In this document: positions 1 to 26,340 of the stretch, one piece after another
Layout: each line of letters begins with the position of its first letter
Position numbering within the stretch: the first letter of the stretch is position 1
Source of the DNA: a virus
Length of the DNA: 26,428 nt
Reading direction: 5' to 3' (one strand)
IMG/VR virus record: IMGVR_UViG_3300035179_000508
Coordinates: 1-26,428 of that record
The notes under the pieces: generated by a model
What the model was told of the DNA's origin: nothing
Database searches by the model: none
Seen by the model: the letters and a program-made list of their open reading frames with translations, nothing else
Made by a program: the position numbers and the translations under genes

Positions 1-54
1 CGCTAATTCGACTTTTTGCATATGATTGACTATTAAGCGATCTTGGTAAAAAAG

Positions 55-127
55 TGGGCCCGAAGGGATTCGAACCCTCGATTTTCGCCTTGTAAAGGCG
101 ACGTCATAACCGCTAGACCACGGGCCC
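55..127 (-). tRNA. tRNA-Val (anticodon TAC), host gene restored at attL
   Basis: Read on the minus strand, 73 bases fold as a complete tRNA. The acceptor stem GGGCCCG (127-121) pairs perfectly with CGGGCCC (62-56), followed by an A discriminator at 55. The anticodon stem TCGCC/GGCGA encloses loop TTTACAA, so the anticodon is TAC (Val, codon GTA). The T arm has GAGGG, loop TTCGAAT and CCCTT. No CCA is encoded, as is common in archaea. A T-run follows the 3' end (complement of 47-54) and may terminate transcription. The 5' half (89-127) is the attachment core shared with the right end; the 3' half belongs to the host side. Confidence 0.93.
89..127. repeat. attL core (39-base direct repeat)
   Basis: Identical to 26302-26340 base for base; the match stops at 88 (c versus t) and 128 (g versus a). 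It covers the tRNA-Val from the 5' end through the anticodon loop. Tyrosine recombinases commonly cross over in the anticodon loop, here near 89-97. The identity block extends toward the 5' end of the tRNA rather than the more usual 3' end. Confidence 0.9.
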
Positions 128-5305: not shown

Positions 5306-5457
5306 TGCCATACCGTTGCACGATCTCCGGCTGTGGCAAGGTCTTCCCGTACCTGATTGGTGGCAAGATCCACGTTTATGGCGATCACGGCAAGTCCTGG
5401 AAGAAAGCGCGCTGCTACCTCGAGCACGTGAGCAAGGACGGCAGGAAGTTGATGTAG
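5305..5457 (+). CDS. Mini zinc finger (Ros/MucR-like), family member 2
   Basis: 50 residues. ATG 5305 is chosen over the adjacent ATG 5302 because the paralogue at 5458 begins with the same MPY; GTGGAGGG lies at 5291-5298. The finger is C-x4-C (CTISGC) then GKIHVYGDH with GKSWKKARCYL following, nearly identical to the next protein. The two-residue spacing between cysteines in member 1 is four here. TAG is followed immediately, in frame, by the ATG of member 3. Probably DNA-binding; a tandem duplication with the next gene. Confidence 0.7.
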   Translation: MPYRCTISGCGKVFPYLIGGKIHVYGDHGKSWKKARCYLEHVSKDGRKLM

Positions 5458-5745
5458 ATGCCCTATCAATGCATGATCTCTAACTGCAATCATGTTGAGT
5501 TGACGTTGCTCTATGGTAAGATCCACGTCTATGAGATTCACGCCAAGTCCTGGAAGAAGGCGCGCTGCTATCTGAGGTACATAACTGTTCAAGAGGCGGC
5601 ACGATTACCTGCCGAGAAATTGCCGACCGCACCGAAGAAGAAGAAAGAGTTGTCCGTCCGTGAACTACTCAAAAAACATGCCGAGGATGAAAAGCGAGAA
5701 AGAAAGGAATGGGCACTTGGAAAGGCCAAAGGCAAATCGAGATGA
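5458..5745 (+). CDS. Mini zinc finger (Ros/MucR-like), family member 3, with basic tail
   Basis: 95 residues, starting directly after the TAG of member 2 and in the same frame. Residues 1-41 copy member 2 (MPYQCMISNCN, GKIHVYEIH, KSWKKARCYL). An added tail of about 50 residues is rich in Lys and Glu (KKKKELSV, EDEKRERKEW) and looks like a charged helix. The DNA of the two finger parts is also visibly similar, so this is a recent tandem duplication. Possible regulator or DNA-binding protein. It ends in an ATGA overlap with member 4. Confidence 0.7.
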   Translation: MPYQCMISNCNHVELTLLYGKIHVYEIHAKSWKKARCYLRYITVQEAARLPAEKLPTAPKKKKELSVRELLKKHAEDEKRERKEWALGKAKGKSR

Positions 5746-6008
5746 GATGGATGGGCTACGAATGCAAGCGTTGTGGGGCATATTACGAAAGCCAGCTGAA
5801 AGGCCGGTGCCATGTCCATCTCGAGCATGGCGTATCGTGGAAAAAAGCGTTGAAAGAGCTAAAATTGGCGGAAAACCCTGCGAAATCATCCTGCCCAAAT
5901 GGCAAAAATGTCAGTAAATCGCGTAAAGCGCATCGAATAGGAAATTTTGTTTATAAAGGCTATTTAAACGAATTGCCAAAAAATCCCCCTTCCGAGGCCC
6001 AAGAATGA
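5742..6008 (+). CDS. Mini zinc finger (Ros/MucR-like), family member 4
   Basis: 88 residues from ATG 5742 (ATGA overlap with the previous stop). The finger is YECKRCGAYY, then CHVHLEHGVSWKKALKEL, that is CxxC...HxxxH-G-x-S-W-K-K-A. A basic, Asn/Ser-rich tail of about 45 residues follows. It belongs with the proteins at 1879, 5305 and 5458. It overlaps the next gene by four bases. Confidence 0.68.
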   Translation: MRWMGYECKRCGAYYESQLKGRCHVHLEHGVSWKKALKELKLAENPAKSSCPNGKNVSKSRKAHRIGNFVYKGYLNELPKNPPSEAQE

Positions 6009-6145
6009 CGAAAAAACCTCAACTCTGCGACATGTGCGGCGAACCGATGAAGCGGGTGACGATGCCGGGGAGGAAAAGTGTGTATGTGTGTGTATGTGGC
6101 GAGCGGGTCAAGGTGCGCGAGGGGATGATCACCGCGGCGAAGTAG
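6005..6145 (+). CDS. Zinc-ribbon mini-protein with open frame after its TAG
   Basis: 46 residues from ATG 6005 (ATGA overlap). It carries CDMCGEPM and YVCVCGERV, a split CxxC/CxC ribbon. The frame ends at TAG 6143-6145 but stays open for another 26 codons to TGA 6224-6226, right at the ribosome-binding site of the next gene. The extra stretch (SDVTFEYPSVYSDKL onward) looks protein-like, so either readthrough or a former longer gene is possible. Family not recognised. Confidence 0.6.
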   Translation: MTKKPQLCDMCGEPMKRVTMPGRKSVYVCVCGERVKVREGMITAAK

Positions 6146-6232
6146 TCCGACGTCACGTTTGAGTATCCGTCCGTGTATTCCGACAAGCTGGCTCATGTTG
6201 TTAAAATTCGGCATGCGAGGAGGTGAGTGGCG

Positions 6233-6628
6233 ATGATTGAAGTGATGACTTTTGTGACGGCGTCCGTGCTGGCGATCGTGGCCGGGGCAGTCCGCTGCGT
6301 GGCGGGCTGGCTCGAGAACGCGCTGCGCGACGACGTGATCGAGGAATTCGAGTGGCGGAAGCTCGCGGGGACGATGGCGATGTATCTGGGGGCGGTGAAC
6401 GTGGCCAGCATAGGACTCGCTCCGGAGATGGCGGTCGTCGTGGCGATGCTGCTCGATATGGCGAGGACGGCGCTGGGGCATATCGCCGAAGGAAAAGCAG
6501 GAAATATAATAGAGGCTCCACATCCATCTAGGCCTGAACCTCCAACACTTGGACCAAAACCAAAATATCCAGGCGGTTTAAAGATAGCTTACGAAGCGGA
6601 CGCAGAGAAAGCAAAAAAGAAAAAGTGA
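6233..6628 (+). CDS. Small membrane protein, possible holin-like
   Basis: 131 residues from ATG 6233; a perfect GAGGAGGTGA at 6217-6226 supports it over GTG 6227. Hydrophobic segments are near residues 4-23 (MTFVTASVLAIVAGAV), 44-60 and 63-80. A Pro-rich stretch (PHPSRPEPPTLGPKPKYPGG) and a basic end (EKAKKKK) follow. Size and layout fit a small holin-like or other membrane protein, but no family is recognised and no lysis enzyme lies beside it. It is the last gene of the early operon; a terminator follows. Confidence 0.6.
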   Translation: MIEVMTFVTASVLAIVAGAVRCVAGWLENALRDDVIEEFEWRKLAGTMAMYLGAVNVASIGLAPEMAVVVAMLLDMARTALGHIAEGKAGNIIEAPHPSRPEPPTLGPKPKYPGGLKIAYEADAEKAKKKK

Positions 6629-6635
6629 TTGGATT

Positions 6636-6679
6636 GGGCCGGATGTATGATGTGGCACATCGGCCCTCTTTTCTTTTTT
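6636..6679 (+). terminator. Hairpin plus T-run terminator of the early operon
   Basis: GGGCCGGATGT (6636-6646) pairs with ACATCGGCCC (6657-6666) with one bulged G and a 10-base loop. A T-rich tract follows at once (6667-6679). T-runs alone terminate archaeal transcription; the hairpin may assist. It separates the early operon from the ParB-methyltransferase gene. Confidence 0.75.
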
Positions 6680-6682
6680 AGT

Positions 6683-6712
6683 GGATAAATAAAACGTTCC
6701 CTAAAATGTATA
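6683..6712 (+). promoter_or_regulatory. TATA promoter of the ParB-methyltransferase gene
   Basis: GGATAAATAAAACG at 6683-6696 is a good archaeal TATA element just after the terminator. A start site about 26 bases downstream falls near 6713-6716, at the GTG start codon, so the mRNA may be leaderless. The TATA core resembles the late promoters at 9702, 12551, 15428 and 21033, but the downstream part is not clearly shared. Confidence 0.6.
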
Positions 6713-7864
6713 GTGAAATTGGCCTGTGATGTTATGCAGATAATCGACCGAGATCCGCGCACGCTGAAGCCGTTCGAGAAGAATCCGAAGAAGCACCCGG
6801 GGTCGCAGATAGAGAAACTGGTGCGCTCGATTGAGGAGTTCGGGTTCACCAATCCGATCCTGACGATTGAGCACAACGGGGGGCACTTGATCGTCGCGGG
6901 CCACGCTCGAGTTGTCGCCGCGGTGGAGAAGGGACTGGCGACTGTGCCGACGATCGACCTGAAGATATCGTACGAGAAGGCGGTGGCGTACAACGTGGCG
7001 GACAACAAGATCGCGGAGCTCGCCGAATGGGATGATGCGATACTCGGCGCGTTAATGACGAACGATATTCCTGCCGAGCTGCTCGAGGCCACGGGGTTCG
7101 ACAATCGAGAAATCTCGGCGATTCTCGACAAGATGAAGGGCGTGGAGGAAGTCGCAGAGGTGAACGTGGATGTCGTGCCGAGATGCAAGCAGGGCCAAGT
7201 GTGGCGACTTGGTGGCCACCGATTGATGTGTGGGGATGCAACCAACAAACAAGACGTAGAAACCCTAATGAATGGCACTAAAGCAGACATGATATTCACA
7301 GACCCACCGTACGGAATAAAAGCAGTTGAATCAAGTGGGGTTTTAAAAGGGCAGTTCTCCCCTATTATTGGTGATGACAAACCATTCTATCCTAAACATT
7401 TACTTAACTTAGCGCAAAAAATCATTATATTCGGTGGCAATTACTTCGCAAATGAACTGCCCATTTCATCGTGTTGGTTTGTTTGGGATAAAAAGGCAGA
7501 AGATACAGAACGGATTGATCAATCGGATTGTGAATTAATTTGGACGAACTTACCAAAACCCGCACGCATTTATCGATGTATTCTACGAGGTTGGTTTAGA
7601 GAAGGCGAATCGAATAAAATAAAAAGAGTTCATCCAGCACAAAAACCAATTAAACTATTATCCGATATTTTGAAAGACACTACAAATAACCTAGATTTAA
7701 TTCTTGACCCTTACGGTGGTTCTGGTTCTACCCTTATCGCATGCGAACAATTAGACCGCCGATGCTTTATGATGGAGATCGAGTCCCGTTACTGCGAAAT
7801 CATCATGCAACGCTGGGAAAAGTTCACGGGTCAAAAAGCGGAGTTGATTGAAGATGCAGGATAG
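6713..7864 (+). CDS. ParB-like / DNA methyltransferase fusion
   Basis: 383 residues. Residues 8-110 are a ParB/Srx-like domain (PFEKNPKKH, then VAGHARVVAA as box II). Residues about 160-375 are an N6-adenine or N4-cytosine methyltransferase with DPPY at 197-200 before DPYGGSGST (332-340), the beta-class order. ParB-methyltransferase fusions are common beside phage terminases and are thought to modify viral DNA or help packaging. GTG 6713 fits a leaderless start; ATG 6734 is the alternative, also consistent with the ParB homology. From about 7240 to 7750 the DNA turns strongly AT-rich while both flanks match the rest of the gene, so the catalytic core looks swapped in. Confidence 0.9.
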   Translation: MKLACDVMQIIDRDPRTLKPFEKNPKKHPGSQIEKLVRSIEEFGFTNPILTIEHNGGHLIVAGHARVVAAVEKGLATVPTIDLKISYEKAVAYNVADNKIAELAEWDDAILGALMTNDIPAELLEATGFDNREISAILDKMKGVEEVAEVNVDVVPRCKQGQVWRLGGHRLMCGDATNKQDVETLMNGTKADMIFTDPPYGIKAVESSGVLKGQFSPIIGDDKPFYPKHLLNLAQKIIIFGGNYFANELPISSCWFVWDKKAEDTERIDQSDCELIWTNLPKPARIYRCILRGWFREGESNKIKRVHPAQKPIKLLSDILKDTTNNLDLILDPYGGSGSTLIACEQLDRRCFMMEIESRYCEIIMQRWEKFTGQKAELIEDAG

Positions 7865-8354
7865 CGCATTGGCCAAGCAGACATTCCAAGAAAAAATAAG
7901 CGAGCGCCGCAAGAAGATGCTCAAGTTCCATTTCAGGGGCATCTCGGCGACCGAGTGGGTTTCCCTCGTCGCGCAGGAATACGGCATCACGGAGATCGCC
8001 ATCTGGCAGGACTGGCGCCGGCGCAAGAGCTGGCTGAGCAAGGTCTTCAATCTGAACGACGTGGTCGACGAAATTAACATGAACATGGTCGAGTTGATGA
8101 ATGTGAAGGAGGAGGCGTGGCGGACGTACCACAAGGCCGAGAACGCGCAGAGCAAGGCGGCTGCTCTCAAGATAGTCGCGCGGGCGATAGTCGACAAAAT
8201 TGAAATCCTGCAATCGCTCGGCGAAGTCCACAGGGAGCCGCAGAAAATTGAAATTGAAGGGAGGGTCGCTATTGTCGAGTTGCTCAAAGTCTATGCTCCG
8301 ATCGCCGAGCGAATTGGTGCTGGATCTGTTCAAAAAAACAATTCTGGAAAATAG
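7854..8354 (+). CDS. Terminase small subunit-like protein
   Basis: 166 residues from ATG 7854; TTG 7848 is a possible earlier start. It overlaps the methyltransferase by 11 bases. Residues about 28-58 form a helix-turn-helix-like stretch (SATEWVSLVAQEYGIT, then IWQDWRRRKSWL), as expected for recognition of viral DNA. The rest is helical and could form the oligomer core. Position directly before the large terminase, with overlap, is the main support; sequence similarity to a named family is not clear to me. Confidence 0.72.
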   Translation: MQDSALAKQTFQEKISERRKKMLKFHFRGISATEWVSLVAQEYGITEIAIWQDWRRRKSWLSKVFNLNDVVDEINMNMVELMNVKEEAWRTYHKAENAQSKAAALKIVARAIVDKIEILQSLGEVHREPQKIEIEGRVAIVELLKVYAPIAERIGAGSVQKNNSGK

Positions 8355-9582
8355 ATGGATTCCAGAGAGCCACAGGCCCACGGCGAAGCAGGCCGAGTTT
8401 TTGATGTCGCCCCAACTCGAAGTTCTTTACGGTGGAGCTGCTGGCGGTGGAAAGACTGATGGCCTCTTGATGGCTGCGCTCCAGTTCGCCGATATGCCCG
8501 GATACAACGCGATTCTTTTCAGGCGCACTCTCCAGGATCACAAACTTCCCGAAGGCCTCATCCCGCGGTCTATGGAATGGTTGACCGACAAGGGCGCGAA
8601 GTGGAACGGCAGCGATTACAAGTGGACGTTTCCGAGCGGAGCGACACTGACATTCGGGTATCTCGAGACGGAACAGGACAAGTATCGATATCAGAGTTCG
8701 GCGTTTCAGAGCATCGGTTGGGATGAATTGACGCAATTCCAAGAGAGCCAGTATGCTTATCTCATGTGCCGTCTGCGCCGCCTCACCAATGTCCACGTTC
8801 CGCTGCGCGTGAGGTCTGCGACAAACCCGGGAGGCATCGGTCATGAGTGGGTCAAGCAGCGCTTCATCGTGGAGGGCCAGAAATACAACAGGGCGTTCAT
8901 TCCCGCGTTGCTCGAGGACAACCCCCACATCGATCGCACAACGTATGAGAAAAATTTACAACTGCTTGACCATGCAACGTTCAGACAACTCCGCCATGGG
9001 GATTGGGAGATTAGGCCCGACGTCGGCAAGTTCCGCCGCGAATGGTTCACGATCGTCGACGGTTATCCTGCCGAAGCGAAAAAGGTGCGCTTCTGGGATC
9101 TCGCCTCGACGCTGCCGAAGACGGGCACGGACCCGGACTGGACGGCGGGGGCGCTGATGGCTGAGAAGGACGGCGTGTACTACCTCGTGGATATCCAGCG
9201 CAGGAGAGGAACGCCGCAACAGGTCGAGCAACTCATCCGAATGACCGCGGAGATGGACGGTCCCAGCGTCGACATCTGCATGGAAGAGGAGCCGGGGAGC
9301 TCGGGCGTGGCGATGATCGACCACTACGCGCGCGAAGTGCTGAAGGGCAAAACGTTCAGAGGTATCAGGACGACGGGCGATAAAGAGATTAGGGCGAATC
9401 CGGTGAGTTCGGCGGCAGAGGCGGGGAACGTGAAATTGGTCAGGGGCACATGGATCAACGACTTTTTGGACGAGGCCGAGATTTTTCCGCGGGGTTCACA
9501 TGATGACCAAGTCGACGCCGTGGCCGCGGGATTTTCGATGCTGGCTGTTAAAACAGAACTGACGGAGAGACCATTTGCGTGA
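8293..9582 (+). CDS. terL: Terminase large subunit
   Basis: 429 residues from ATG 8293. The longer frame from ATG 8200 is unlikely because it would read far into the small-subunit gene with basic, low-quality sequence. ATPase: Walker A GGAAGGGKT (47-55), Walker B IGWDE (141-145), coupling motif SATN (175-178). RNase H-like nuclease: FWDL (D269), MEEE (330-333) and HDDQVDA near the C-terminus, so all three acidic clusters are present. It packages viral DNA into proheads and cuts it. Length is normal for the family. It overlaps the small-subunit gene by 62 bases. Confidence 0.95.
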   Translation: MLRSPSELVLDLFKKTILENRWIPESHRPTAKQAEFLMSPQLEVLYGGAAGGGKTDGLLMAALQFADMPGYNAILFRRTLQDHKLPEGLIPRSMEWLTDKGAKWNGSDYKWTFPSGATLTFGYLETEQDKYRYQSSAFQSIGWDELTQFQESQYAYLMCRLRRLTNVHVPLRVRSATNPGGIGHEWVKQRFIVEGQKYNRAFIPALLEDNPHIDRTTYEKNLQLLDHATFRQLRHGDWEIRPDVGKFRREWFTIVDGYPAEAKKVRFWDLASTLPKTGTDPDWTAGALMAEKDGVYYLVDIQRRRGTPQQVEQLIRMTAEMDGPSVDICMEEEPGSSGVAMIDHYAREVLKGKTFRGIRTTGDKEIRANPVSSAAEAGNVKLVRGTWINDFLDEAEIFPRGSHDDQVDAVAAGFSMLAVKTELTERPFA

Positions 9583-9591
9583 GGTGCCAGT

Positions 9592-9741
9592 ATGGGTCAA
9601 ACGATAACTGTCTATTGGTGCGAGAAAGAAGCGGTGTGGGTGTTCCCAGACAAGTGCGAGAAGTGCATGATCAAGAACGTCTGCGTCAAGAAGTTCTCTC
9701 ACAGCATAAATATTTCGTCAACGCAAGTTAAATCAGAGTGA
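9592..9741 (+). CDS. Zinc-knuckle mini-protein whose end encodes a promoter
   Basis: 49 residues from ATG 9592, with GAGGTG just upstream. Cysteines are in YWCEKE, KCEKC and VCVKK, giving a C...CxxC...C site. The last codons (HSINISSTQVKSE) are laid over the promoter of the portal operon at 9702-9741, so that part of the protein may be dictated by DNA function. The gene sits between terminase and portal. Family not recognised. Confidence 0.6.
   Translation: MGQTITVYWCEKEAVWVFPDKCEKCMIKNVCVKKFSHSINISSTQVKSE
9702..9741 (+). promoter_or_regulatory. Late promoter copy A (portal operon)
   Basis: CAGCATAAATATTTCG with TTAAATCAGAGTGAG downstream. It shares CAGCATAAATATTT with the copy at 15428 and nearly so with 21033. 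A TATA core at about 9706-9715 predicts transcription start near 9735-9740, a few bases before portal ATG 9746. It lies inside the 3' end of the upstream small gene. Confidence 0.65.
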
Positions 9742-9745
9742 GCCG

Positions 9746-11323
9746 ATGCCAAAATCTAAAGTTAAAACATCTCTAAAAACGCGTCCATTTGCCGTCGATG
9801 TTAGACCAAGGCATAGGGCCATGGATCAGGACATCAGGATTCCGCAGACAGGTACATCGGGAGGCGCCGGCTTCGGGGACACGATTGTTGACGCCGATCG
9901 TGAATGGGCAGCGCAGAGAGAGCCAGTGGCCAATCGAATAACTTGCATGGTCGCCGCGGATATCTTCGATAATTGGTTCGAGGTTGATGATCCCAAGACC
10001 GAGGGCAAGGATGAGAAACTCAACGCCAAGTTTCAAGCGGTGCTCAACGGACTCAACGCAAAGACTATCTTCACTGATGCGGCGATCTATGAACGCACTC
10101 TCGGATACAGTCTTATCGCGATTGCGTTCAATGATGCGCCGACGGAAGCAACTTTGAGGAATATAAAGAGACGTGGCGCGAAAATTGACCATCTTGAAGT
10201 ATACAAAAAGACAGATGTTGTCTCGGTGAAAAAGAACACGAATCCCGACAGCAAAGAATACGATCAGCCTGCGGTCTATACTATCAACCGGGGTGGCGGT
10301 CGACAGATTAATGTTCATCAGTCGCGGACGATTCGCCTCGCGACTCGTCTTGGCGAGTTTTCAGTCTTGGACCCGATATGGGACGATCTGACCTGCCTCC
10401 GCAATGAACGTTGGGGCATGGCTCAGACATTGTATCGATACGGCAGTGGTTTCCCTGACATCAAGATCGATGGCGCGTCGGCGAAGCAACTCCAAGAGTG
10501 GGACTTGAATTTGTCCGATATTTGCGCGCGAACAAAATTTGTGCACAACGAACATGCTGAGTTAAACTTCAAAGGCGCTCAAGGCGTCGCGCTCAATCCC
10601 ACGTTGTATTATGATCCTATCTTAGAGAATCTCGCCGTAGGGTCAGGAATTCCTCTGGCCATCCTCCGCGGGGCCCAGGCTGGCGAACTCGCGGGCAGCG
10701 AGGTCAACGAGAGGGAATATTTCAAAGTCATCAGTTCGCTCCAGAGCAAGTTCGAGCCGTTCGTCCGTCAGCTCCTTGACATGCTAATTGAGAGCGGGCA
10801 GGTCGACTATGAAGGCGACTACGTGATTAATTGGAAGCCGGGCTTCGAGCCGTCCGAGGCCACGCGGAACCAGGCGCAACTCCTCGAGGAGCAGGCCAAC
10901 GATCTCAGATTGAAGTATATGTCGATCGACGAGGTCAGAGCCAAGATGTCGCTGCCGGCATTGCCGGACGGCGAGGGCGTAATCGTGCCTGGACTCGTGA
11001 AGCCGCAACAGCAACTGCCGTTTGGTGGCATGGGTGCGGATAAGAACGAGACGCACCCTGCTTTGGGGAGAATGCTTGCCAACATCGTGAACCGGGCCAA
11101 GAAGAAGGAAATCACGAGGGACGACGCGGTCGCGGAGGCAGCGGGCATCATTGACCAGTTCGCCAAGCTTGAAGAAGAAAGGGCACTTATCTGGGTTCGC
11201 AGTCGAGTGAAAACACAAGAGATAAAGGACCCATCACCCGAACTTCAAGCACGGTTTTTGAGGATACGGCAAAACTATGTCAACGATTTTATAAAAATTT
11301 TAGATGATGCTCTGACGGGGTAA
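9746..11323 (+). CDS. Portal protein (DUF1073-like)
   Basis: 525 residues from ATG 9746. The N-terminal 40 residues are basic. The middle has features of DUF1073-type portals: WAAQREPVANRITCMVAADI near residue 55, RTLGYSLIAIAF, and SGIPLAILRGAQAGELAGSE near residue 300, a conserved portal-like segment. A helical C-terminal stretch follows (about 430-525). Portals form the dodecameric DNA channel at one capsid vertex and bind the terminase. Size and place directly after the terminase agree. It starts a new transcription block at late promoter A. Confidence 0.88.
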   Translation: MPKSKVKTSLKTRPFAVDVRPRHRAMDQDIRIPQTGTSGGAGFGDTIVDADREWAAQREPVANRITCMVAADIFDNWFEVDDPKTEGKDEKLNAKFQAVLNGLNAKTIFTDAAIYERTLGYSLIAIAFNDAPTEATLRNIKRRGAKIDHLEVYKKTDVVSVKKNTNPDSKEYDQPAVYTINRGGGRQINVHQSRTIRLATRLGEFSVLDPIWDDLTCLRNERWGMAQTLYRYGSGFPDIKIDGASAKQLQEWDLNLSDICARTKFVHNEHAELNFKGAQGVALNPTLYYDPILENLAVGSGIPLAILRGAQAGELAGSEVNEREYFKVISSLQSKFEPFVRQLLDMLIESGQVDYEGDYVINWKPGFEPSEATRNQAQLLEEQANDLRLKYMSIDEVRAKMSLPALPDGEGVIVPGLVKPQQQLPFGGMGADKNETHPALGRMLANIVNRAKKKEITRDDAVAEAAGIIDQFAKLEEERALIWVRSRVKTQEIKDPSPELQARFLRIRQNYVNDFIKILDDALTG

Positions 11324-11327
11324 TAGC

Positions 11328-11633
11328 ATGGGATTTTGGACTACCGTCGAGGGAATCCTCATGCGCCTGTTCATGCTTAGCGAATCCATAGAATTTGGTC
11401 ACTTTAATGAAGTTATTGTTCGGGTATCGACCGAGAATTTGAGAGAGGTGGAGTTCACGTTTACGGGACCGATAAATGAAAACATCTGCCCAATCTGTCT
11501 TCAATATGTGGGCGAACATTTCAAATTGGGCGAATTCCCGATAGCGTTGACCAGTTGGTATGGAGGATTAGCACATCCAAACTGCGCGCATTGGTGGGAA
11601 CTCTATGCACCAGAAGCGACCGAAATTGCTTAG
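11328..11633 (+). CDS. MuF-like zinc module, minor head protein fragment
   Basis: 101 residues from ATG 11328, four bases after the portal stop. The second half has ENICPICLQYVGEHF, then GEFP, then AHPNCAHWWEL. This is the CPxC...G..F..GE.P...HPNC pattern seen at the end of SPP1 gp7/Mu gpF-type minor head proteins, but the large N-terminal domain is missing. Position after the portal agrees. A second protein with a related motif is at 22402. It may be a stand-alone zinc module that acts with the portal. Confidence 0.6.
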   Translation: MGFWTTVEGILMRLFMLSESIEFGHFNEVIVRVSTENLREVEFTFTGPINENICPICLQYVGEHFKLGEFPIALTSWYGGLAHPNCAHWWELYAPEATEIA

Positions 11634-11643
11634 GTGAATTTAC

Positions 11644-12066
11644 GTGAGCTTCGAGTCATTGTGGGCCAAGATCGCGAACTTCAAAAAGACAGGGGAGTTG
11701 GACAAAATAATCATGGCCAAACTCGCGGCGTTGCTCCCGGTGAAACAGATGGCTTATGGATTCCTTGAAAATGCTGCAAGTGCCTCGCCCGAGTTCGAGA
11801 GCGATGATCCGTTTTTGAATTGGCTGAATGATTTGCTGAATGAGTTCGTCCGTGCGGAAGGAGCGCACGACGGATTGCCCGATCGACACACAGCGAGGAT
11901 CTTCGCACCCGGGGTGAAAGTAGGGATGAGTCACGCGGAAGCGGACAGGGTCTATCGTGAATCGCTCGCCGGTCTCGTGGCGAAAATCCGAGCAGCTCCG
12001 CGCCCGCCAATAGATGCATCGGAAGCGGAACGGATCGAAAAGCGGTATGGAGTCAAGGTGGTCTGA
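11644..12066 (+). CDS. Hypothetical protein in the portal block
   Basis: 140 residues from GTG 11644, with TAGGTGA upstream. Mostly helical and charged; it includes GLPDRHTARIFAPG and GMSHAEADRVYRESL. No cysteines or membrane segments. The TGA stop abuts the TTG start of the next gene in the same frame. Function not recognised; perhaps a head-assembly accessory. Confidence 0.65.
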   Translation: MSFESLWAKIANFKKTGELDKIIMAKLAALLPVKQMAYGFLENAASASPEFESDDPFLNWLNDLLNEFVRAEGAHDGLPDRHTARIFAPGVKVGMSHAEADRVYRESLAGLVAKIRAAPRPPIDASEAERIEKRYGVKVV

Positions 12067-13018: not shown

Positions 13019-13201
13019 ATGACGAAAGAAGAATGCGCCGGCTTGCATAACGCAATAGCAGAGCTAGTGGTAACTAGGAAGATGAGTGTGCAGGATGCTG
13101 TTTATGTGTTCGAACTGCTCAAACAGGAAATCATGGACGGCGAACTGAAGAAAATCTTTGCCCCGAAGTTGAGCGATAAAAAACCGACCGAGATGGGATG
13201 A
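13019..13201 (+). CDS. Hypothetical small helical protein
   Basis: 60 residues from ATG 13019, with AAGGTGG upstream. Helical, mixed charge (ELVVTRKMSVQDAVYVFELL). It overlaps the spike gene by four bases. No family recognised; it may be a chaperone or a connector for the spike because the genes are coupled. Confidence 0.6.
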   Translation: MTKEECAGLHNAIAELVVTRKMSVQDAVYVFELLKQEIMDGELKKIFAPKLSDKKPTEMG

Positions 13202-14688
13202 TGGCACCGATTTTTAAAAAAATACTCCTCGACGGGGATGTAACCAGTGGCGATACTCGTGGATGCACGATAGTCGTGGCCGCGAGCAACTCGATAGACC
13301 CCACGCTCGCACCAGCGGCTTATCGTTGCGATGGCACCGACGATCAGGTTGAGATAAATGCCGCCATCACAGTTTTGGGCGCGACTGGTGGAACTGTCAT
13401 GCTCCTCGAGGGCCAGTACAACATAACGGCTTCGATAAACCTAGCCACGCTTACGACTCTAATGGGGCAGGGCGCGGGGACAGTGCTCAGAATACCGAAT
13501 GGGTTCGACGCCGACCTGAACGTGATCTCCGCCGTGAGTGTGAACCGCGTCATCGTGGCTGACCTGAGAGTAGACGGGAACTTGGCGAACCAGACCGCAG
13601 GAAATATGAACGGGATATACTTCGAGACTGTCACTTACTCCACGATAGCGCGGTGCTGGGCTGAGAACCTTTACGTTGACGGATATGCGGGCATCTACCT
13701 CGTCACCTCCAGCAACAACACCATCATGGGCAACAACTGCCAGGACAACGACTACGCCGGTATCTTCCTCTCTGTCTCCAGCAACAACAACACTATCACG
13801 GGGAACAACTGCCAGTCCAACGACACAGGCATCATACTCACCACCTCCAGCAACAACAACACTATCACGGGGAACAACTGCCAGTCCAACGACACCGATG
13901 GCATCAACATAACCAGTACCAGCAACAACAACACTATCACGGGGAACAACTGCCAGTCCAACGGACGGCACGGCATCCAGCTCAACGCCTCCAGCAACAA
14001 CACTATCACGGGGAACAACTGCCAGTCCAACGGACAGTACGGCATCTACCTCCGCGTATCCAGCAACAACAACACGATCACGGGCAACACCATCCAGTCC
14101 AATGTCAGAGCGGGTGTTATGCTTAGTGTATCCAACAACAACATCATCACGGGCAACACCATCCAGTCCAACGGGTGGTGGGGCATCGACTCCACTGGCT
14201 CTGATAACAACACCATCATGGGCAACACCGTGGTCGGGAATTCTCAGACCACCGACAATACGTACGACGGCATTCTAATTGATGGAAGCTCGAACTACAA
14301 CAGCGTGCAGGGGAACACGGTCAGGCACGCAGGGGGGGCGAACCAGCACAAGTACGGCATCTACATAAACATCAATACCTGTAACGGAACCCTCGTGATC
14401 AACAACGACCTCTACCTGTCGGGCAGGACGGCAAACCTCAGCGACGCGGGGACGGGGACGATAGTAAGAAGCAACAGGGGCTGGGCCACCGAGAACAGCG
14501 GGACGCGCACGGGCACAGGGGCACAGGAAACCATTCCCCATGGCCTGAACGTAATACCTAACCGCGTCCAGCTGACGGATTTAGAAGTGGGGGCGTCTCC
14601 TTACCAGTCCGCAGCACCGGACGCGACCAACATTTACACCACCGCAGTGCTGAATCAGGACTATTTATGGAAGGCCTGGAAAGTGTAA
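13198..14688 (+). CDS. Right-handed beta-helix spike protein (NosD/pectate-lyase-like)
   Basis: 496 residues; start ATG 13198, with ATG 13201 next. Residues about 40-110 match the N-terminus of pectate-lyase-type proteins (RCDGTDDQVEINAAI, then GGTVMLLEGQYNI, then LMGQGAGTVL). Residues about 130-390 are parallel beta-helix rungs; at least eight are tandem copies of SSNNNTITGNNCQSN of 22-24 residues. The C-terminus (GTGAQETIPHGLNVIPNRV) looks like a fibre-tip or trimerisation domain. In viruses such proteins bind or degrade surface glycans. No catalytic residues can be assigned. Repeats at DNA level make length change by slippage likely. Confidence 0.85.
   Translation: MMAPIFKKILLDGDVTSGDTRGCTIVVAASNSIDPTLAPAAYRCDGTDDQVEINAAITVLGATGGTVMLLEGQYNITASINLATLTTLMGQGAGTVLRIPNGFDADLNVISAVSVNRVIVADLRVDGNLANQTAGNMNGIYFETVTYSTIARCWAENLYVDGYAGIYLVTSSNNTIMGNNCQDNDYAGIFLSVSSNNNTITGNNCQSNDTGIILTTSSNNNTITGNNCQSNDTDGINITSTSNNNTITGNNCQSNGRHGIQLNASSNNTITGNNCQSNGQYGIYLRVSSNNNTITGNTIQSNVRAGVMLSVSNNNIITGNTIQSNGWWGIDSTGSDNNTIMGNTVVGNSQTTDNTYDGILIDGSSNYNSVQGNTVRHAGGANQHKYGIYININTCNGTLVINNDLYLSGRTANLSDAGTGTIVRSNRGWATENSGTRTGTGAQETIPHGLNVIPNRVQLTDLEVGASPYQSAAPDATNIYTTAVLNQDYLWKAWKV
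13707..14243 (+). repeat. Tandem coding repeats of about 66-72 bases in the spike gene
   Basis: About eight copies. The core AACACTATCACGGGGAACAA plus CTGCCAGTCCAACG is almost identical in four or five central copies and decays toward both ends. Near-identity at DNA level shows recent expansion or conversion rather than only protein-level constraint. Confidence 0.85.
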
Positions 14689-17575: not shown

Positions 17576-18448
17576 ATGGACAAACTACGCTATGTTGGAA
17601 CAGATGAACCGCTGACGACGGAGCAGGGACTAGTCCTCCGTGATAGGATAATCACGGCGGCAAGACGGACAATGATCGGACGCAAACTGCTTCCGATTAC
17701 CGCAGCGCTGGGCGAGGGAGCCACGACATACGGCTATAACACGCTGACTGAGGTATCAGACGCCAGGATTGACTATGGTTGGCCAGGCGCGGAAAGTCTG
17801 GACATCGTCAACTTGGCGCGGACAAATGTCGAGATTCCGAACATACACAAGGAGTTCGAAATCAACAAGCTGGACCTCAACGCGTCAAGGCGGAATGGAA
17901 CGCCGCTCAACTTGAGCTTGGCGGAGTCTGCGACATATAAGGCGTCGCGGATGGAAAACAGCCTCATATTGGACGGCTGGAAGCGGAACGGTACATACGA
18001 GATAAACGGGCTGTACAGGGCAGCAGGCAACGACGAAACCACGAATCTAGATTGGGGAACCGCGACAAACATCCCGCTATCGATTACGGCTGCGATGAAA
18101 TTGATGCTGGAAGACGAAATCGATCCGCCGTACAATCTTGTATTGCATCCACAACAGTGGACCAACGCGCTCGCATTGATTGGAACGTCTGCGAACAGCT
18201 GGATCACTTGGATCAGGGAAGCGATTCAAGGCGAGGTCTATCAGACGGCCGCCATGACGAACGGCACGGGTCTGTTGTCGAAGGCCAACCCAGAGGGGAT
18301 GTTTGAGTACGTTCCCGCAGAGGATCTGACGCTCAAGACAGAAGTCTTGCAGAAGTCAGAAAACCTGTGGGGCAAGGTCTACATCAGGGCTCTACCAGTC
18401 GTGTACAACGCGAACGCGCTATGCAAACTGAGCGATATCGGAACATAG
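17576..18448 (+). CDS. Major capsid protein, HK97-fold, encapsulin-like
   Basis: 290 residues from ATG 17576, directly after the previous TAG. Features recall the encapsulin/linocin-like branch of HK97-fold proteins: RRTMIGRKLLPITAALGEGA near residue 28, TYGYNTLTEVSDARI, IHKEFEINKLDLNASRR near residue 95, and a C-terminal IRALPVVYNANALCKL. Length is normal for that branch. It has no large N-terminal delta domain, in line with the separate scaffold-like gene. The 88-base gap after it holds only a weak GC-rich hairpin (18481-18503) and no T-run. Confidence 0.85.
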   Translation: MDKLRYVGTDEPLTTEQGLVLRDRIITAARRTMIGRKLLPITAALGEGATTYGYNTLTEVSDARIDYGWPGAESLDIVNLARTNVEIPNIHKEFEINKLDLNASRRNGTPLNLSLAESATYKASRMENSLILDGWKRNGTYEINGLYRAAGNDETTNLDWGTATNIPLSITAAMKLMLEDEIDPPYNLVLHPQQWTNALALIGTSANSWITWIREAIQGEVYQTAAMTNGTGLLSKANPEGMFEYVPAEDLTLKTEVLQKSENLWGKVYIRALPVVYNANALCKLSDIGT

Positions 18449-18823: not shown

Positions 18824-19141
18824 ATGGTGAATTGTCAAGCAAGTGACGTGAGATTGATAATCAACACTTCGCTCACGGACACGAACATAGGATCTCTGAT
18901 CACCCTCGCCGATGCCGAGATGATCGCGAGGGGACTCGATGAAGGGACGTCCAACATAAAAAAGCTCATCTCGATGCTCATTACTGCCAGCCTCTGCGCG
19001 CTGCGCGACCCGGCGAGCAAGAGCATCGGTGAATACACGGAAGCGAAACTCAACGCCGAGGGATGGAGAAAGTTGGCGGAGGACCGCATCAGTTGTTTGG
19101 TTGAAATTCCGTTCTTGGCAGTGACCGATCCGGTGGAATAA
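18824..19141 (+). CDS. Head-tail connector-like protein
   Basis: 105 residues from ATG 18824. Helical: SDVRLIINTSLTDTNIGSLI, DAEMIARGLDEG, KLISMLITASLCALRDP. This is the usual look of phage gp6/gp15-type connector proteins that follow the capsid gene, with a first segment 'v....t.ltD..i..li..A...i'. It would dock under the portal and precede the head-closure protein. The TTG start of the next gene follows two bases after the stop. Confidence 0.68.
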   Translation: MVNCQASDVRLIINTSLTDTNIGSLITLADAEMIARGLDEGTSNIKKLISMLITASLCALRDPASKSIGEYTEAKLNAEGWRKLAEDRISCLVEIPFLAVTDPVE

Positions 19142-19143
19142 AC

Positions 19144-21042
19144 TTGTACGATCTACCAGGGACCCGGACATTCACCAGGCGGATCGCCAGCTTTGATGTC
19201 ATAAGAGACCCCATCAGCGGTCATCGCATCCCAACATTCATTGAGGCGGCCATCGACGGCACGCTGGTCGAGCAGTCCGGGGACATGCCCGCGTTCGCCG
19301 CCGGCCTGGTGATGACTCAAAACGCGGTCTTTTTCACCCGCGACACAGTGACTGAACTCGATCAGATCCGAGACGGCACCAAACTCTACGAGGTGCGGCA
19401 GATCGAAGAGAAACCCGATAAAGTCGGCGTTCTTGTTTATCGGGCATGCCACCTCCACAGATTGGAATTGTACATAGATACCTCTATATTTTCTGGCGGC
19501 AGTGGAACGGTTGATGATCCCTGGGTCATAAAAAATATTGACCAGTTGCAAGCGATGAAAAATCACCTCACTGCTTATTATATCCTCGGTAACGACATCG
19601 ATGCCTCTACCACTTCGACTTGGAATGAAGACCTTCCAGGAAACCCTGGAACTTATCTCGGGTTCGAACCAGTCGGAACAGCGGACAACCAATTTACTGG
19701 AAACTTTAACGGGCAGGGTCACAAGATTTACGATTTATATATTAATAGACCCGCCACGCCCTATGTCGGTCTTTTCGGGAAGGCGAATGGGATCGTCGTG
19801 AAAAATCTGGGGTTGGAAAATGTGAATGTGACTGGGGATCATTATACGGGTGGCCTTATTGGATTGAACGAGGCGGTGGGGGAGGGAAATATGTCTAACT
19901 GCTATTCAACTGGTTCCGTGACTGGTGGTGGGGATATGGGTGAAGGCGATATGGCCGGCGGCCTTGCTGGGGAATTTAACGGACCGATGGATAGTTGCCA
20001 TTCTTCTTGTTCTGTGAATAGTAGTGCCAGTTACGTGGGCGGCCTCGTCGGATGGACGCAGGGAACCGTAACCAATTGCTATTCAACAGGAAACGTGAGT
20101 GGTCATGATTATGTGGGTGGTTTCGCCGGGGGCATTAGTACTATGGGAGATGTGGTTAATTGTTATTCTATCGGTTCTGTCGACGGCAATGGTGCTATCG
20201 GTGGTTTCGTCGGGGGAATTGGAAGCGCAACCATGGTCAACTGCTACTCCATGGGTGTTGTAAGTGGCATCAGTTACGTGGGCGGCCTCGTCGGGAAGGA
20301 TGAGAGTGGAGGTGTGGAAAACTCTTTCTGGGACATGGACACATCTGAGCAACCAACAAGCGCCCTCGGGACAGGAAAAACGACTGAACAAATGAAAGAT
20401 GTTAGAACTTATACGTCTCTGGAATGGAGCGGCGAAGGACTGGCCGTCCCCTGGGACTTCGTGGGAACCCAGTATGATGACGAAGGAACGGACGACATCT
20501 GGGATATCAATTCAACAACGAACGATGGGTATCCCTTCCTTACGCCTCCTCCACCCCTCACGTCGACCGAGCCCCGTTACATCATAAGAACGTGGTTCGA
20601 TCCATCATTCGAGGCGTGCAAGGTGAATGCGGACGACATGATAAAACATGATGAGCGCAATGCCACTTTCGAGGCCGATTATGAGATGGGCGAAAACAAC
20701 CTCAAGACGCTTTTCATCGACGTTGGTCTCGATATCATCTTCGTCATCAAGAAGGTCAGGACGGAGCCGATTAAGGCGGGCAGAAACACGATCGGATACC
20801 GCCACTTCATCGGGATCCAGCCGTGCGTCATCAACAAGCTCTTGGGCGGGACGATAAACGTGCAGGCGACCGAACTCCTGGGTAAGGCCTTGGATGAGGT
20901 CAGGCGCGTCATCAGGGAGAGCATCGACTCCGGGAGCATGATCACCATGAGTAACGAACAACCCGAGATTCAACGTTTGGGGTCGACGCTTCTGCACGGA
21001 GACACATGTATCGTTAGATGGGAGCAATACATCAGCGCATAA
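19144..21042 (+). CDS. Composite neck protein: head-closure + GLUG-repeat + tail-terminator domains
   Basis: 632 residues from TTG 19144. Residues 1-107 look like a head-closure or head-tail joining protein (FTRRIASFDVIRDP, GTKLYEVRQIEEKPDKVGV). Residues about 108-470 are a GLUG-repeat domain: repeats of YVGGLVG...NCYSTGSV (five to six between 206 and 390) and the usual GLUG tail (NSFWDMDTSEQPTSALGTGK, QMKDV, DIWDI, YPFL). Residues about 476-632 look like a tail-terminator protein (EVRRVIRESIDSGSM, HGDTCIVRWEQY). GLUG domains occur in large surface and adhesion proteins. Most viruses encode the two neck proteins separately, so this is a triple fusion. The middle is AT-richer, a sign of insertion. 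Confidence 0.72.
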   Translation: MYDLPGTRTFTRRIASFDVIRDPISGHRIPTFIEAAIDGTLVEQSGDMPAFAAGLVMTQNAVFFTRDTVTELDQIRDGTKLYEVRQIEEKPDKVGVLVYRACHLHRLELYIDTSIFSGGSGTVDDPWVIKNIDQLQAMKNHLTAYYILGNDIDASTTSTWNEDLPGNPGTYLGFEPVGTADNQFTGNFNGQGHKIYDLYINRPATPYVGLFGKANGIVVKNLGLENVNVTGDHYTGGLIGLNEAVGEGNMSNCYSTGSVTGGGDMGEGDMAGGLAGEFNGPMDSCHSSCSVNSSASYVGGLVGWTQGTVTNCYSTGNVSGHDYVGGFAGGISTMGDVVNCYSIGSVDGNGAIGGFVGGIGSATMVNCYSMGVVSGISYVGGLVGKDESGGVENSFWDMDTSEQPTSALGTGKTTEQMKDVRTYTSLEWSGEGLAVPWDFVGTQYDDEGTDDIWDINSTTNDGYPFLTPPPPLTSTEPRYIIRTWFDPSFEACKVNADDMIKHDERNATFEADYEMGENNLKTLFIDVGLDIIFVIKKVRTEPIKAGRNTIGYRHFIGIQPCVINKLLGGTINVQATELLGKALDEVRRVIRESIDSGSMITMSNEQPEIQRLGSTLLHGDTCIVRWEQYISA

Positions 21043-21559: not shown

Positions 21560-21838
21560 TTGCCTGGTCTGTCGAACCTGACCTTCGACGAATTTTTGAA
21601 ACTCCTCAGAGCAAAGGGACGTACCAAGAAGGCGGATGAACTCGAGGCGAGGGTAATGGAGCGACTTTGCCCGCCGCTCGATCGGGGGGAGATAATGAAG
21701 GCGACGGTCGAAGCCGTGGCGATCGCAGCGGAAATTATTTCTCTCTCAGCGATGGCGTCGGGCACCATTCAGTCGAGGATTGATGAGTTAAAGGGCGAAG
21801 GGTTTGCGGTCTTGCCGGGTGAAGGACATGCCATATAA
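21560..21838 (+). CDS. Tail assembly chaperone-like protein
   Basis: 92 residues from TTG 21560, five bases after the tail-tube stop; the frame back to ATG 21524 would overlap that gene. Helical: LTFDEFLKLLRAKGRTKKAD, EIMKATVEAVAIAAEII. Position after the tail tube fits the chaperone that normally precedes the tape measure. No slippery sequence for the usual G-GT frameshift was found, and an HNH gene has been inserted at its end, overlapping by 11 bases. Confidence 0.55.
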   Translation: MPGLSNLTFDEFLKLLRAKGRTKKADELEARVMERLCPPLDRGEIMKATVEAVAIAAEIISLSAMASGTIQSRIDELKGEGFAVLPGEGHAI

Positions 21839-22412
21839 ACAGGCAAAATATTGGCTGAAACCCGAAGTTAGAGAGAGTAGGCGATTGTATAACCAAAGAC
21901 CAGAAGTCAAAGAACAGAGAAAAAAATATCGGGATAGACCTGAGATTAGAGAGCGAAGACTAGAACGGATGAAATGGTATAATCAAAGACCTGAAGTCAA
22001 AGAACGGCATAGACAATATAAACGAAGGCCAGAGGTTAGAGAACGGAGTAAACAACTTCAAAGACAATATGCCCGGAAGCCAGAAATCAGAAGGCGAAGA
22101 GTAGAGTACAACCGAAAATATTTCCAAAGACAAAAATCAAAAGTAATCGAGCTTTTTGGTGGCAAATGCGTCTATTGTGGATGCGATGATTTGACGGCTT
22201 TTGAGATAAATCACAAAAAGGGTGGGGGTAGGAAGGAATCAAACTCGTGGAGTCGTGCTACGTATTATCATAAAATATTGACTGGGGAACGACGCAGAGA
22301 TGATTTGGAATTGGTTTGTAGAGTCTGCAATGCTCGCCATTATTCAGAAGTTCTCAAAGGCGTCTCTGGAAATTGGGAAATAAAATGGAATGGTGCGAAG
22401 AATGTCAGATGA
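21828..22412 (+). CDS. HNH homing endonuclease with basic tandem repeats
   Basis: 194 residues from ATG 21828. Residues 11-98 hold six to seven repeats of about 14 residues of the form KPEVRERRKQYNQR, very basic, likely DNA-gripping. An HNH domain follows: CVYCGCDDLTAFEINHKKGG (about 114-133) and LVCRVCNARHYSE near residue 168; the two CxxC pairs form the structural zinc site and the NH of EINH the active site. The gene is AT-rich compared with its neighbours. It overlaps the genes on both sides by 11 bases, as selfish HNH genes often do. Confidence 0.85.
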   Translation: MPYKQAKYWLKPEVRESRRLYNQRPEVKEQRKKYRDRPEIRERRLERMKWYNQRPEVKERHRQYKRRPEVRERSKQLQRQYARKPEIRRRRVEYNRKYFQRQKSKVIELFGGKCVYCGCDDLTAFEINHKKGGGRKESNSWSRATYYHKILTGERRRDDLELVCRVCNARHYSEVLKGVSGNWEIKWNGAKNVR

Positions 22413-22770
22413 ACTCATTGTTAGTGGTACTATGCAGGAGATAGTAGGAAAATTAAATTTACTCCTAGAAGTTGTAAAAAATCGGGAAGCAACCGGGTGG
22501 GCGGCCCTTCAAGGGGACGAGAACTGGCAATTTATCAGCATGGGCGATCAACGGGTCTGCCCTCTCTGTCTCGCAATGGAAGCGATTGGAAACTTTGTAG
22601 GATCTGAGGTTCCCGCCAAATTCCCGTTCTATGAAATTTTGGAAGACGCCCTCATCCTCCCTCATGTTCATACGGATCCACCGTGTCGATGCCACCTTGA
22701 GTGGCCCGATGCGGCGCAGGTATGCGAAGCACGTCTTCATGAAGAAAAACTCGTGGCGAGCCGAGGCTGA
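22402..22770 (+). CDS. CPxC/HxDPPCRC protein, MuF-like zinc module
   Basis: 122 residues from ATG 22402; ATG 22390 is possible. The middle reads QRVCPLCLAMEAIGNFVGSE then PHVHTDPPCRCHLEW, the same zinc-like signature as MuF-type minor head proteins and the protein at 11328. The N-terminus (MQEIVGKLNLLLEVVKN) is helical. Here it lies in the tail region, between HNH endonuclease and the tape-measure candidate, rather than by the portal. Function unknown. Confidence 0.6.
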   Translation: MSDELIVSGTMQEIVGKLNLLLEVVKNREATGWAALQGDENWQFISMGDQRVCPLCLAMEAIGNFVGSEVPAKFPFYEILEDALILPHVHTDPPCRCHLEWPDAAQVCEARLHEEKLVASRG

Positions 22771-22773
22771 ATC

Positions 22774-23259
22774 ATGGTTGACGAAAACGTGGTCATACAA
22801 GTTGACGATGCTTCAGTGGACGAAACAATCGCAAAAATAGAGGGCGCCCTCGACAAGAAGGGAGAGGTCGAGGACGTCAAGGAAACGGCCGAGGAAGCAA
22901 AAGTAAATGTGAAAGAAGCCATCGATGTTGCCGAGAGTAGCGATATCAAAGGCACGAATCTTCTCGTCCGGCGAACTGTGGCCCAACTCCCGGGCGTTAG
23001 GGAAGCGTATCATCTGGTCATGTTGATAAGGACGATGCTGCGCGTCTCTCCGGAGATTGCTCTTATCTTGGGTGCATGGATGGCTGGGCGTGCGTTTGTC
23101 GATTGGCTTCAGGGGGGCGTGAGAGAGGCTGAAGAATACAGGAAGATGATAATGGAGGCGAGGGGCTTCACCAAGAAGAGTCAATATGCGGATTGGCAGC
23201 GACAGGCAGAAACCATTCGCCAGAATTCAGAAGCATACAGGGGCGGTGTACCGCAATGA
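22774..23259 (+). CDS. Short tape measure candidate
   Basis: 161 residues from ATG 22774. N-terminal 60 residues are acidic and coiled (ETIAKIEGALDKKGEVEDVK). A hydrophobic stretch near 87-108 (MLRVSPEIALILGAWMAGRA) is probably one membrane span. The C-terminus is polar (EEYRKMIMEARGFTKKS). It occupies the place of the tape measure, between chaperone-like and hub genes, but is far shorter than usual (500 or more residues). It overlaps the hub gene by four bases. It may be a very short tape measure or an unrelated membrane protein. Confidence 0.5.
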   Translation: MVDENVVIQVDDASVDETIAKIEGALDKKGEVEDVKETAEEAKVNVKEAIDVAESSDIKGTNLLVRRTVAQLPGVREAYHLVMLIRTMLRVSPEIALILGAWMAGRAFVDWLQGGVREAEEYRKMIMEARGFTKKSQYADWQRQAETIRQNSEAYRGGVPQ

Positions 23260-24878: not shown

Positions 24879-25029
24879 AAGCCGCGCCACTGAGATTGTC
24901 TGTATTCTCCATGTTCTCATTTCTTTTATTCCATTCCTCATTCTTGATATATGCGACAATGATATTGACAACAATCAAGATAGCGATTACCGCTAGTACG
25001 ACGCGAACATTATGACTTAGTGGTTGCAT
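24802..25029 (-). CDS. Small membrane protein, antisense to the hub gene end
   Basis: 75 residues, start ATG at 25029 with GGAAGAAG just before it (minus strand). A membrane helix covers residues 9-27 (VVLAVIAILIVVNIIVAYI); the rest is polar. The start overlaps the integrase stop by 13 bases, so it is likely cotranscribed with the integrase. Its 3' part runs 77 bases antisense into the hub gene. Function unknown. Confidence 0.5.
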   Translation of the reverse strand: MQPLSHNVRVVLAVIAILIVVNIIVAYIKNEEWNKRNENMENTDNLSGAAFMPSQAIAVSLRTVAQLPISDYSII

Positions 25030-25946
25030 GTTACTTCTTCCTTCCCCAAAACTTTCAACCCCGCTTTGCCATATATCTCCTTTAATCTTTCCGGCGAGTA
25101 GTCAGTGTAGTGCTTCCCGAGCACACTCCTCGGGATCCTGCCGCAGTAGGCGTCGACATATCTGTCCTGGACGCCGAGTCGCCCGAGCTCGCAGCAGAAC
25201 CAGTCGCGGAGGACCTGCGGAGTGATTTTGAAATCGTCGGGGCTGGCCTTCCCGAACTTGCGCGTCATGACGTGCTCGTTCAGATCGAAAACGCGCTCGC
25301 TTGGGCTGGGTGATTTGGTCAAGGACAGCCTTTCGAGCGCGGCTTTCGCCTCGGAATTGAAGCATGTGGCCCACTGAAATTTTGTAGTGCCAAAATGGCG
25401 ACTCGGATAGATGATGCGGTTCTCCATGTCGATGCGCGCCCAGATCAGTTCCATGAGTTCATGTTTCCGGAGTCCGCTCGATGCGAACAGCAGGAAGGCA
25501 GTCTCGAGTTCGGGGTCGTCCAGGTTGTCGTATGTTTCTTTGAGTTGCTCGCGAGACGGGGCGATCACAACGCGGAATGGGGATTGAGGGACCTTGAAAC
25601 AATCGGCTAAATTACTGTCAAAAAATCGGCTATATAGAACGCGCAGGGCCTTGACAGTATTCATGGCACCGTTCTGATCTAGGAACTGGCGCAACTCCTC
25701 GCGGGTCGCGTCGAGGGGATGCTTGTCCAAAAACTTCAGCAAGCGTTTGACGTGCCTCATGCGCTCCACAATCGTGCGACGCTGCAAACGGTAGTCGACA
25801 TAACAAGCATGTTCGAACTCGTGGAGTATAACATCAGGGTCGAAAGGCGTGGGCGTGAGGCGCCGGGGAATCGATGACAGGATATCCTCAATCACGGCAC
25901 GCGGAACGAGCACGTATTCGGATTTTTCCATTGTGTCCAGCTCCAT
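25017..25946 (-). CDS. int: Tyrosine-recombinase integrase, archaeal type
   Basis: 309 residues from ATG 25946 (minus strand); ATG 25931 is also possible. Residues 35-115 form a SAM-like N-terminal domain; the catalytic domain follows. Box I is SSGLRKHELMEL (R160), with a likely catalytic Lys in TTKFQ (K189). Box II ITPQVLRDWF keeps R247 but has Gln where many members have His or Lys. The C-terminus CGRIPRSVLGKHYTDYSPE holds the nucleophile, Y280 or Y283. The ending resembles archaeal virus and plasmid integrases. It sits beside the right att site and would recombine the tRNA-Val 5' half. A divergent zinc-ribbon gene shares its upstream region. Confidence 0.92.
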   Translation of the reverse strand: MELDTMEKSEYVLVPRAVIEDILSSIPRRLTPTPFDPDVILHEFEHACYVDYRLQRRTIVERMRHVKRLLKFLDKHPLDATREELRQFLDQNGAMNTVKALRVLYSRFFDSNLADCFKVPQSPFRVVIAPSREQLKETYDNLDDPELETAFLLFASSGLRKHELMELIWARIDMENRIIYPSRHFGTTKFQWATCFNSEAKAALERLSLTKSPSPSERVFDLNEHVMTRKFGKASPDDFKITPQVLRDWFCCELGRLGVQDRYVDAYCGRIPRSVLGKHYTDYSPERLKEIYGKAGLKVLGKEEVTCNH

Positions 25947-26265: not shown

Positions 26266-26267
26266 GG

Positions 26268-26340
26268 TGGGGCCGCCAAGATTTGAACTCGAGGTCTTTG
26301 TCTTGTAAAGGCGACGTCATAACCGCTAGACCACGGGCCC
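26268..26340 (-). pseudogene. Chimeric tRNA-Val relic at attR
   Basis: A full 73-base tRNA-like sequence on the minus strand with the same TAC anticodon. The 5' half equals the left tRNA, but the 3' half is diverged and viral. The anticodon stem TCGCC/GACAA has two C-A mismatches, and acceptor GGGCCCG/CGGCCCC one C-C mismatch, while the T stem still pairs. The viral 3' half would pair perfectly with a different 5' half (TTGTC and GGGGCCG), so it comes from another tRNA-Val. Probably not a functional tRNA. Confidence 0.8.
26302..26340. repeat. attR core (39-base direct repeat)
   Basis: Exact copy of 89-127. Left of it lies viral DNA (diverged tRNA 3' half), right of it host DNA with the original tRNA promoter. 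Confidence 0.9.

Follow-up and report, generated by a model that had tools for sequence, protein, structure and literature searches.

A GLUG module between fused stopper and tail-terminator domains in a provirus of probable Bathyarchaeia origin

Surface-binding domains, Ig-like and others, are found appended to phage structural proteins, mostly those of the capsid, the tail tube and the tip. In phages SPP1 and lambda, the stopper (gp16 and gpFII, respectively) and the tail terminator (gp17 and gpU) are two proteins, encoded in the gene order adaptor-stopper-terminator-tube. The SPP1 connector contains gp6, gp15 and gp16 at a ratio of 12:12:6 (PMC9701221), and in lambda both gpFII and gpU are hexamers, with gpFII directly touching gpU (PMC10721106). 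The stopper and the terminator of phage 812 are also both hexamers (PMC12886913), and the neck model of TP901-1 has the same stopper-terminator arrangement (PMC10747895). For the long-tailed phages studied so far, earlier work cited in PMC12494034 assigns the stopper to the head and the terminator to the tail, with tails being completed first and attached to heads afterwards. In phage 812, it is the terminator that opens the stopper at docking (PMC12886913).

Several described systems carry additional mass at or near the neck. The neck passage proteins of lactococcal 936 and P335 phages anchor carbohydrate-binding or β-helix modules at the neck as attachment aids (PMC6669499, PMC10747895); they are separate proteins, whose N-terminal ring domain forms a collar round the adaptor or portal, and the binding of a lactococcal neck carbohydrate-binding module proved weak when tested (PMC6669499). 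The turrets of the archaeal tailed virus HFTV1, which are separate proteins with a deacetylase-like domain on the capsid hexamers, have been proposed to mediate attachment away from the tail tip (PMC12494034). Phage 812 bears small, separate decoration proteins at the joint between stopper and terminator, which lack an adhesin-type module (PMC12886913).

The stretch of DNA analysed here, termed the window, comprises positions 1 to 26,428 of IMGVR_UViG_3300035179_000508; the contigs compared with it carry L-numbers. Two tRNA-Val (TAC) genes identified by ARAGORN on the minus strand (54..127 and 26266..26340) share an identical 40-base stretch (about 88-127 and 26301-26340) that marks the two copies of the attachment site, and an archaeal-type tyrosine integrase (25017..25946, minus strand; Pfam Phage_integr_3, 2.4e-8) lies near one of them, indicating that the window is an integrated provirus of ~26 kb with little flanking DNA. 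It encodes a portal (9746..11323, plus strand; Pfam Phage_portal_3, 4.9e-27; phrog_146) and a major capsid protein of the HK97/Linocin_M18 fold (17576..18448, plus strand; Pfam 4.4e-29; phrog_264, major head protein), in addition to a terminase and a head maturation protease (phrog_2229). Among cellular genomes, relatives of the portal occur almost exclusively in Bathyarchaeota MAGs, and a search with the attachment-site flanks returned short tRNA matches only, in two Bathyarchaeia genomes. The host is most likely an uncultivated member of the Bathyarchaeia, judging from the relatives of the portal and of the GLUG module rather than from a direct match. With respect to the Bathyarchaeia head-tailed viruses (Fuxi-/Kunpengviridae-like), compared by portal, major capsid protein, integrase and host link, the window shows an archaeal integrase and a portal with Bathyarchaeota relatives, and is a candidate for that group.

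A single open frame at 19144-21042 (plus strand) encodes 632 residues from a TTG start, and neither a stop codon nor a frameshift interrupts it in the assembled sequence. The chain starts with a stopper (head-closure, gp16/gpFII-type) domain (residues 1-112; 19144..19479), followed by an inserted segment of short linkers and a complete GLUG module (19480..20565), and ends with a tail-terminator (gpU/gp17-type) domain (residues 475-632; 20566..21042). Models and profiles found nothing further in the chain, and both ends of the insert are in frame with the flanking domains. An earlier note on this DNA had read the frame as one 632-residue chain with GLUG between two neck domains, and the open frame, Pfam and the comparison with the related contig L004 all bear this out; only its limits for the module, residues 108-470, shift slightly upon pairwise comparison, to a core of residues ~116-466 (19489-20541) that starts with FSGGSG and ends with GYPFL. 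The architecture of a fused stopper-GLUG-terminator chain is thus well supported.

The identity of the flanking domains came from relatives and from structure, as Pfam gave no match in either flank, and the one PHROGs match in the chain, of unknown function, covers the GLUG part only. Residues 4-112 are 73% identical to a separate stopper gene of L004, and residues 472-630 are 66% identical to its separate terminator gene. Family profiles detected the stopper at an E-value of 1.6e-31 and the terminator at 3e-41; these values are optimistic since the profiles were iterated on their own family, yet they show that the matches are not due to chance. Tblastn of the stopper and terminator against phage records recovered no real relatives, and a broad alignment of terminators contained no stretch sufficiently conserved to scan with. 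A search of PDB sequences with the terminator profile returned chance matches only; fold comparison alone succeeded in linking the terminator to known structures. An AlphaFold model of the direct fusion of L147 (263 residues; pLDDT 80.8, pTM 0.73) has two domains, which in Foldseek searches against PDB matched the terminators T5 p142, lambda gpU, DT57C and a tail chain of HFTV1, and the stoppers of the Pam3 neck, SPP1 gp16 (7z4w_1), Douge and XM1. In the model of the window chain, confidence is high for the flanks and low for the GLUG part (pLDDT about 30-68). For this model as a whole, the Pam3 neck chain 8hdr_A, of 110 residues, ranks first (E 1.5e-4, TMt 0.66); the stopper-type matches also include the GTA chain 6tba_3A and the XM1 neck 7kjk_A4, and the terminator-type matches include lambda gpU (3fz2/8iyd) and T5 p142. 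Although the Foldseek E-values are modest (about 1e-4 to 1e-2), nearly all proteins in the lists are neck proteins, and the two models return the same sets of stoppers and terminators. Both models therefore have the β-barrel/sandwich fold of a stopper, and the α/β fold of a terminator is likewise recovered through lambda gpU, T5 p142 and the HFTV1 tail chain. The structure prediction that the earlier note had suggested as a check on its neck assignment accordingly agrees with it for both domains.

The neighbouring genes follow the order adaptor-stopper-terminator-tube of long-tailed phages. Directly upstream lies a putative adaptor (18824..19141, plus strand), 55% identical to the syntenic gene of L004, where the stopper gene likewise follows it; its function is suggested by its position and by an adaptor-family profile, with which many relatives show such a gene ahead of their stopper. 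Directly downstream lies a gene 68% identical to its syntenic counterpart in L004 (21082..21555, plus strand), which from its position would encode the tail tube and has relatives in L040, L049 and L081. A second, longer tube-like copy, 55% identical to that of the window, lies after the hub gene of L004 (13819-14577) and was not found in the window. An HNH-type gene (21804-22412; GC 0.41, GC3 0.35), apparently a recent mobile insertion, separates the tube-like gene from the conserved gene that follows. The Cys-rich gene at 22390-22770 has relatives in some 35 contigs, mostly directly after the portal, in a MuF-like position; it lies in the tail region in the window, in L004 and once in L040. 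A candidate tape-measure gene, assigned by position (22774-23259), encodes a short protein of 161 residues, from which we would guess at a short tail that keeps the neck near the cell.

The comparison with L004 (IMGVR_UViG_3300034378_000096) locates the insertion exactly. This contig is the closest relative, with structural genes about 44-73% identical to those of the window, and was the only one returned by searches with single proteins and two-row alignments of the whole chain or its domains against viral and genome contigs. It lacks the GLUG module and such genes of the window as those starting at 13198 and 14704. The former (13198-14688), between portal and protease, encodes a NosD/right-handed β-helix protein (Pfam 2.4e-59), which gives this small virus another module of solenoid type. 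In L004, the stopper (9736-10098) and terminator (10095-10565) genes are separate and overlap by 4 bp; the stopper ends in ...LELYIDEESP* and the terminator restarts at M-TEPRY. The window reads ...LELYID-TSI-[GLUG]-PPPPLTS-TEPRY, which places the insert exactly at the former gene joint, with the ATG of the terminator lost. A sequencing or assembly artefact, in which two genes and a fragment of a host gene were misjoined, might be suspected of an insert carried by one contig only, host-like and with a GC3 (0.50) below that of its flanks (0.69 and 0.74). However, each join keeps the frame and falls exactly at the end of a domain, and the same pair of genes is fused in many independent contigs, which makes an artefact very improbable.

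Pfam assigns the inserted module to Glug (PF07581), at 50.5 bits against a cut-off of 20.5 (E 1.6e-13 for the whole protein), with three motifs at 19837-19923, 20023-20100 and 20110-20181. Over 324 residues, the module shares 44% identity with the secreted Bathyarchaeia protein L186, and the similarity starts just past a signal peptide, read by eye, with FSGSGSGT in L186 against FSGGSGT in the window. In L186, and in the secreted Bathyarchaeia GLUG proteins L187 and L188, the module follows the signal peptide of a cell-surface type protein, whereas in the window it lies inside a neck chain. The simplest reading of these sequence relationships and of the lower GC3 of the insert is that the module is of host origin. 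A sequence search of PDB with the module gave no match. GLUG is the name of a motif, and the adhesin role and solenoid-like shape that we ascribe to the module of the window are both inferred.

A broad portal alignment gave 80 viral contigs and Bathyarchaeota MAGs, to which the stopper and terminator profiles were then applied. Both domains are present in 26 distinct contigs. Twelve of these, among them the window, have the two in a single frame; a linker of only 7-12 residues joins them in the remaining 11. Three Bathyarchaeia genome contigs (L209, L210 and L212) also encode fusions, with linkers of 8-15 residues, and two more genome contigs (L211 and L213) encode separate proteins. In total, 15 of 31 related contigs, which are not independent samples as some are closely related, carry the fusion, and in 14 of these just 7-15 residues join the domains, with no insert between them. 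In L149 and L209, the fusion even takes in the tube-like domain that comes next. A tree built from the two domains places the fused chain of the window and the separate genes of L004 as sisters, away from the other fusions, so the fusion arose, or was lost, on more than one occasion. A view of the fusion as peculiar to the window is rejected by these counts; among the 31 related contigs, a large insert in the linker between stopper and terminator was found in the window only. The earlier note's statement that no such case was known to have been described fits word searches of open papers, which returned neither a paper on a stopper-terminator fusion nor a GLUG neck protein or GLUG domain on a phage structural protein. 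Terminators are typically, though not by strict definition, separate polypeptides, and those of the window and the 14 other contigs are not. The GLUG insert is a new form of neck decoration, on a fused neck that itself appears to be undescribed.

We propose, with a probability of roughly 0.6, that six copies of the fused chain form stacked stopper and terminator rings which display a host-derived GLUG adhesin as a collar around the neck. The stopper and terminator of this head-tailed provirus, most probably one of Bathyarchaeia, would be synthesised as one chain, six copies of which would build two stacked hexameric rings beneath the 12-fold adaptor. A secreted surface protein of host-like type would have supplied its extracellular GLUG module, inserted at the former gene joint. 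As the insertion site is where the C-terminus of the stopper meets the N-terminus of the terminator, six GLUG modules could loop outwards, leaving the outer face of the joint to form a collar. The most likely role of this collar would be that of an auxiliary adhesin, binding the particle to host glycans or surface proteins ahead of engagement by the tail, in line with the role proposed for the lactococcal neck passage proteins and the HFTV1 turrets.

The ring stoichiometry is compatible with such a chain. The earlier note had seen a conflict between a 12-fold and a 6-fold ring that would demand cleavage, but the solved stoppers of SPP1, lambda and phage 812 are hexameric like terminators, the two rings lie stacked on each other in solved or modelled necks, and the 12-fold ring is that of the adaptor, putatively a separate gene in the window; a 1:1 stopper-terminator chain fits without being cut, and the argument that fixed stoichiometry forces cleavage is rejected. 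Alternatively, the chain might be a precursor that is cut, or the terminator might also be started internally, giving separate rings with the GLUG module released or kept on one of them. The linkers TSI and TPPPPLTS look flexible in sequence, the virus encodes a head maturation protease, and in-frame ATG/GTG codons at residues 391 and 417, in the C-terminal part of GLUG, follow weak, purine-rich sequence resembling a ribosome site, from which a separate terminator product is conceivable. On the other hand, a cleavage motif is not known, the terminator has lost its ancestral ATG, and the candidate internal starts lie within the GLUG part. Moreover, the domains of 14 relatives are covalently fused with only 7-15 residues between them, extended by the tube-like domain in L149 and L209, so an uncut fusion seems to be tolerated. 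We consider separation of the two rings unlikely. No second stopper or terminator was found in the window, which the attachment-site repeats bound, so that both functions appear to come from the fused chain alone.

Other large modules recur on neck ring proteins in this virus group. In L153, L155 and L213, ~365 residues precede the stopper (45-79% identical among the three), and those of L155 have a weak likeness to the α/α folds of C5-epimerase and GH88. L211 has about 470 residues of another kind before the stopper and a 50-residue insert in the terminator, the terminators of L153 and L155 extend to 326 residues with an extra β-rich part, and L156 has about 175 residues before the adaptor. 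Separate genes occupy similar positions: L010 and L151 have two genes between the stopper and a terminator with an N-terminal extension, and L163 and L170 have a β-helix gene directly ahead of the stopper. In viruses of two lineages unrelated to the window, GLUG genes (L194, 5965-6960; L195, 624-2507; L196, 5962-7887) lie directly upstream of genes read by eye as adaptor-like. The Bathyarchaeia provirus L040 encodes a protein of 2267 residues (5075-11875) that contains about 15 Flg_new (InlB B-type) repeats and is placed between the capsid gene and genes in the terminator position. Its C-terminus appeared adaptor-like by eye, but the adaptor profile gave no confirmation, so it is left out of the count.

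These modules bear on whether the GLUG part could instead be a structural brace or spacer at the stopper-terminator joint. The decoration proteins of phage 812 span the same joint and seem to protect the neck (PMC12886913), which would be a precedent. But the direct fusions of 14 relatives manage without a brace, the host homologues of GLUG are secreted surface-type proteins, and the modules at or near other necks of the group are β-helices, InlB-type repeats and folds resembling sugar enzymes; a purely structural role thus appears improbable. The collar that we favour resembles the HFTV1 turrets in placing attachment away from the tail tip, and differs from the turrets, the phage 812 decoration proteins and the lactococcal neck passage proteins in that its module lies within the stopper-terminator chain. 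The N-terminal ring domain of the last was not found in the window chain, which is not a member of that family but, by analogy, may work alike.

A broader view, which we offer tentatively, is that in this group the completion of the head and the termination of the tail are covalently joined in a single step, and that the neck ring has become the chief carrier of adhesin and sugar-enzyme modules derived from hosts. If so, the stopper and terminator, with the tube-like domain in L149 and L209, would enter the particle as one ring, and tails would be built on, or delivered with, the gate, rather than heads and tails maturing apart; the GLUG collar would be one of several host-derived modules on that ring. 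The natural covalent fusion, recurring across a virus group linked to uncultivated archaea, makes the order of head and tail events directly testable. With its insert, the virus appears to have recruited an entire extracellular domain of host-like type to an essential ring protein, which suggests that archaeal viruses may use the neck for attachment.
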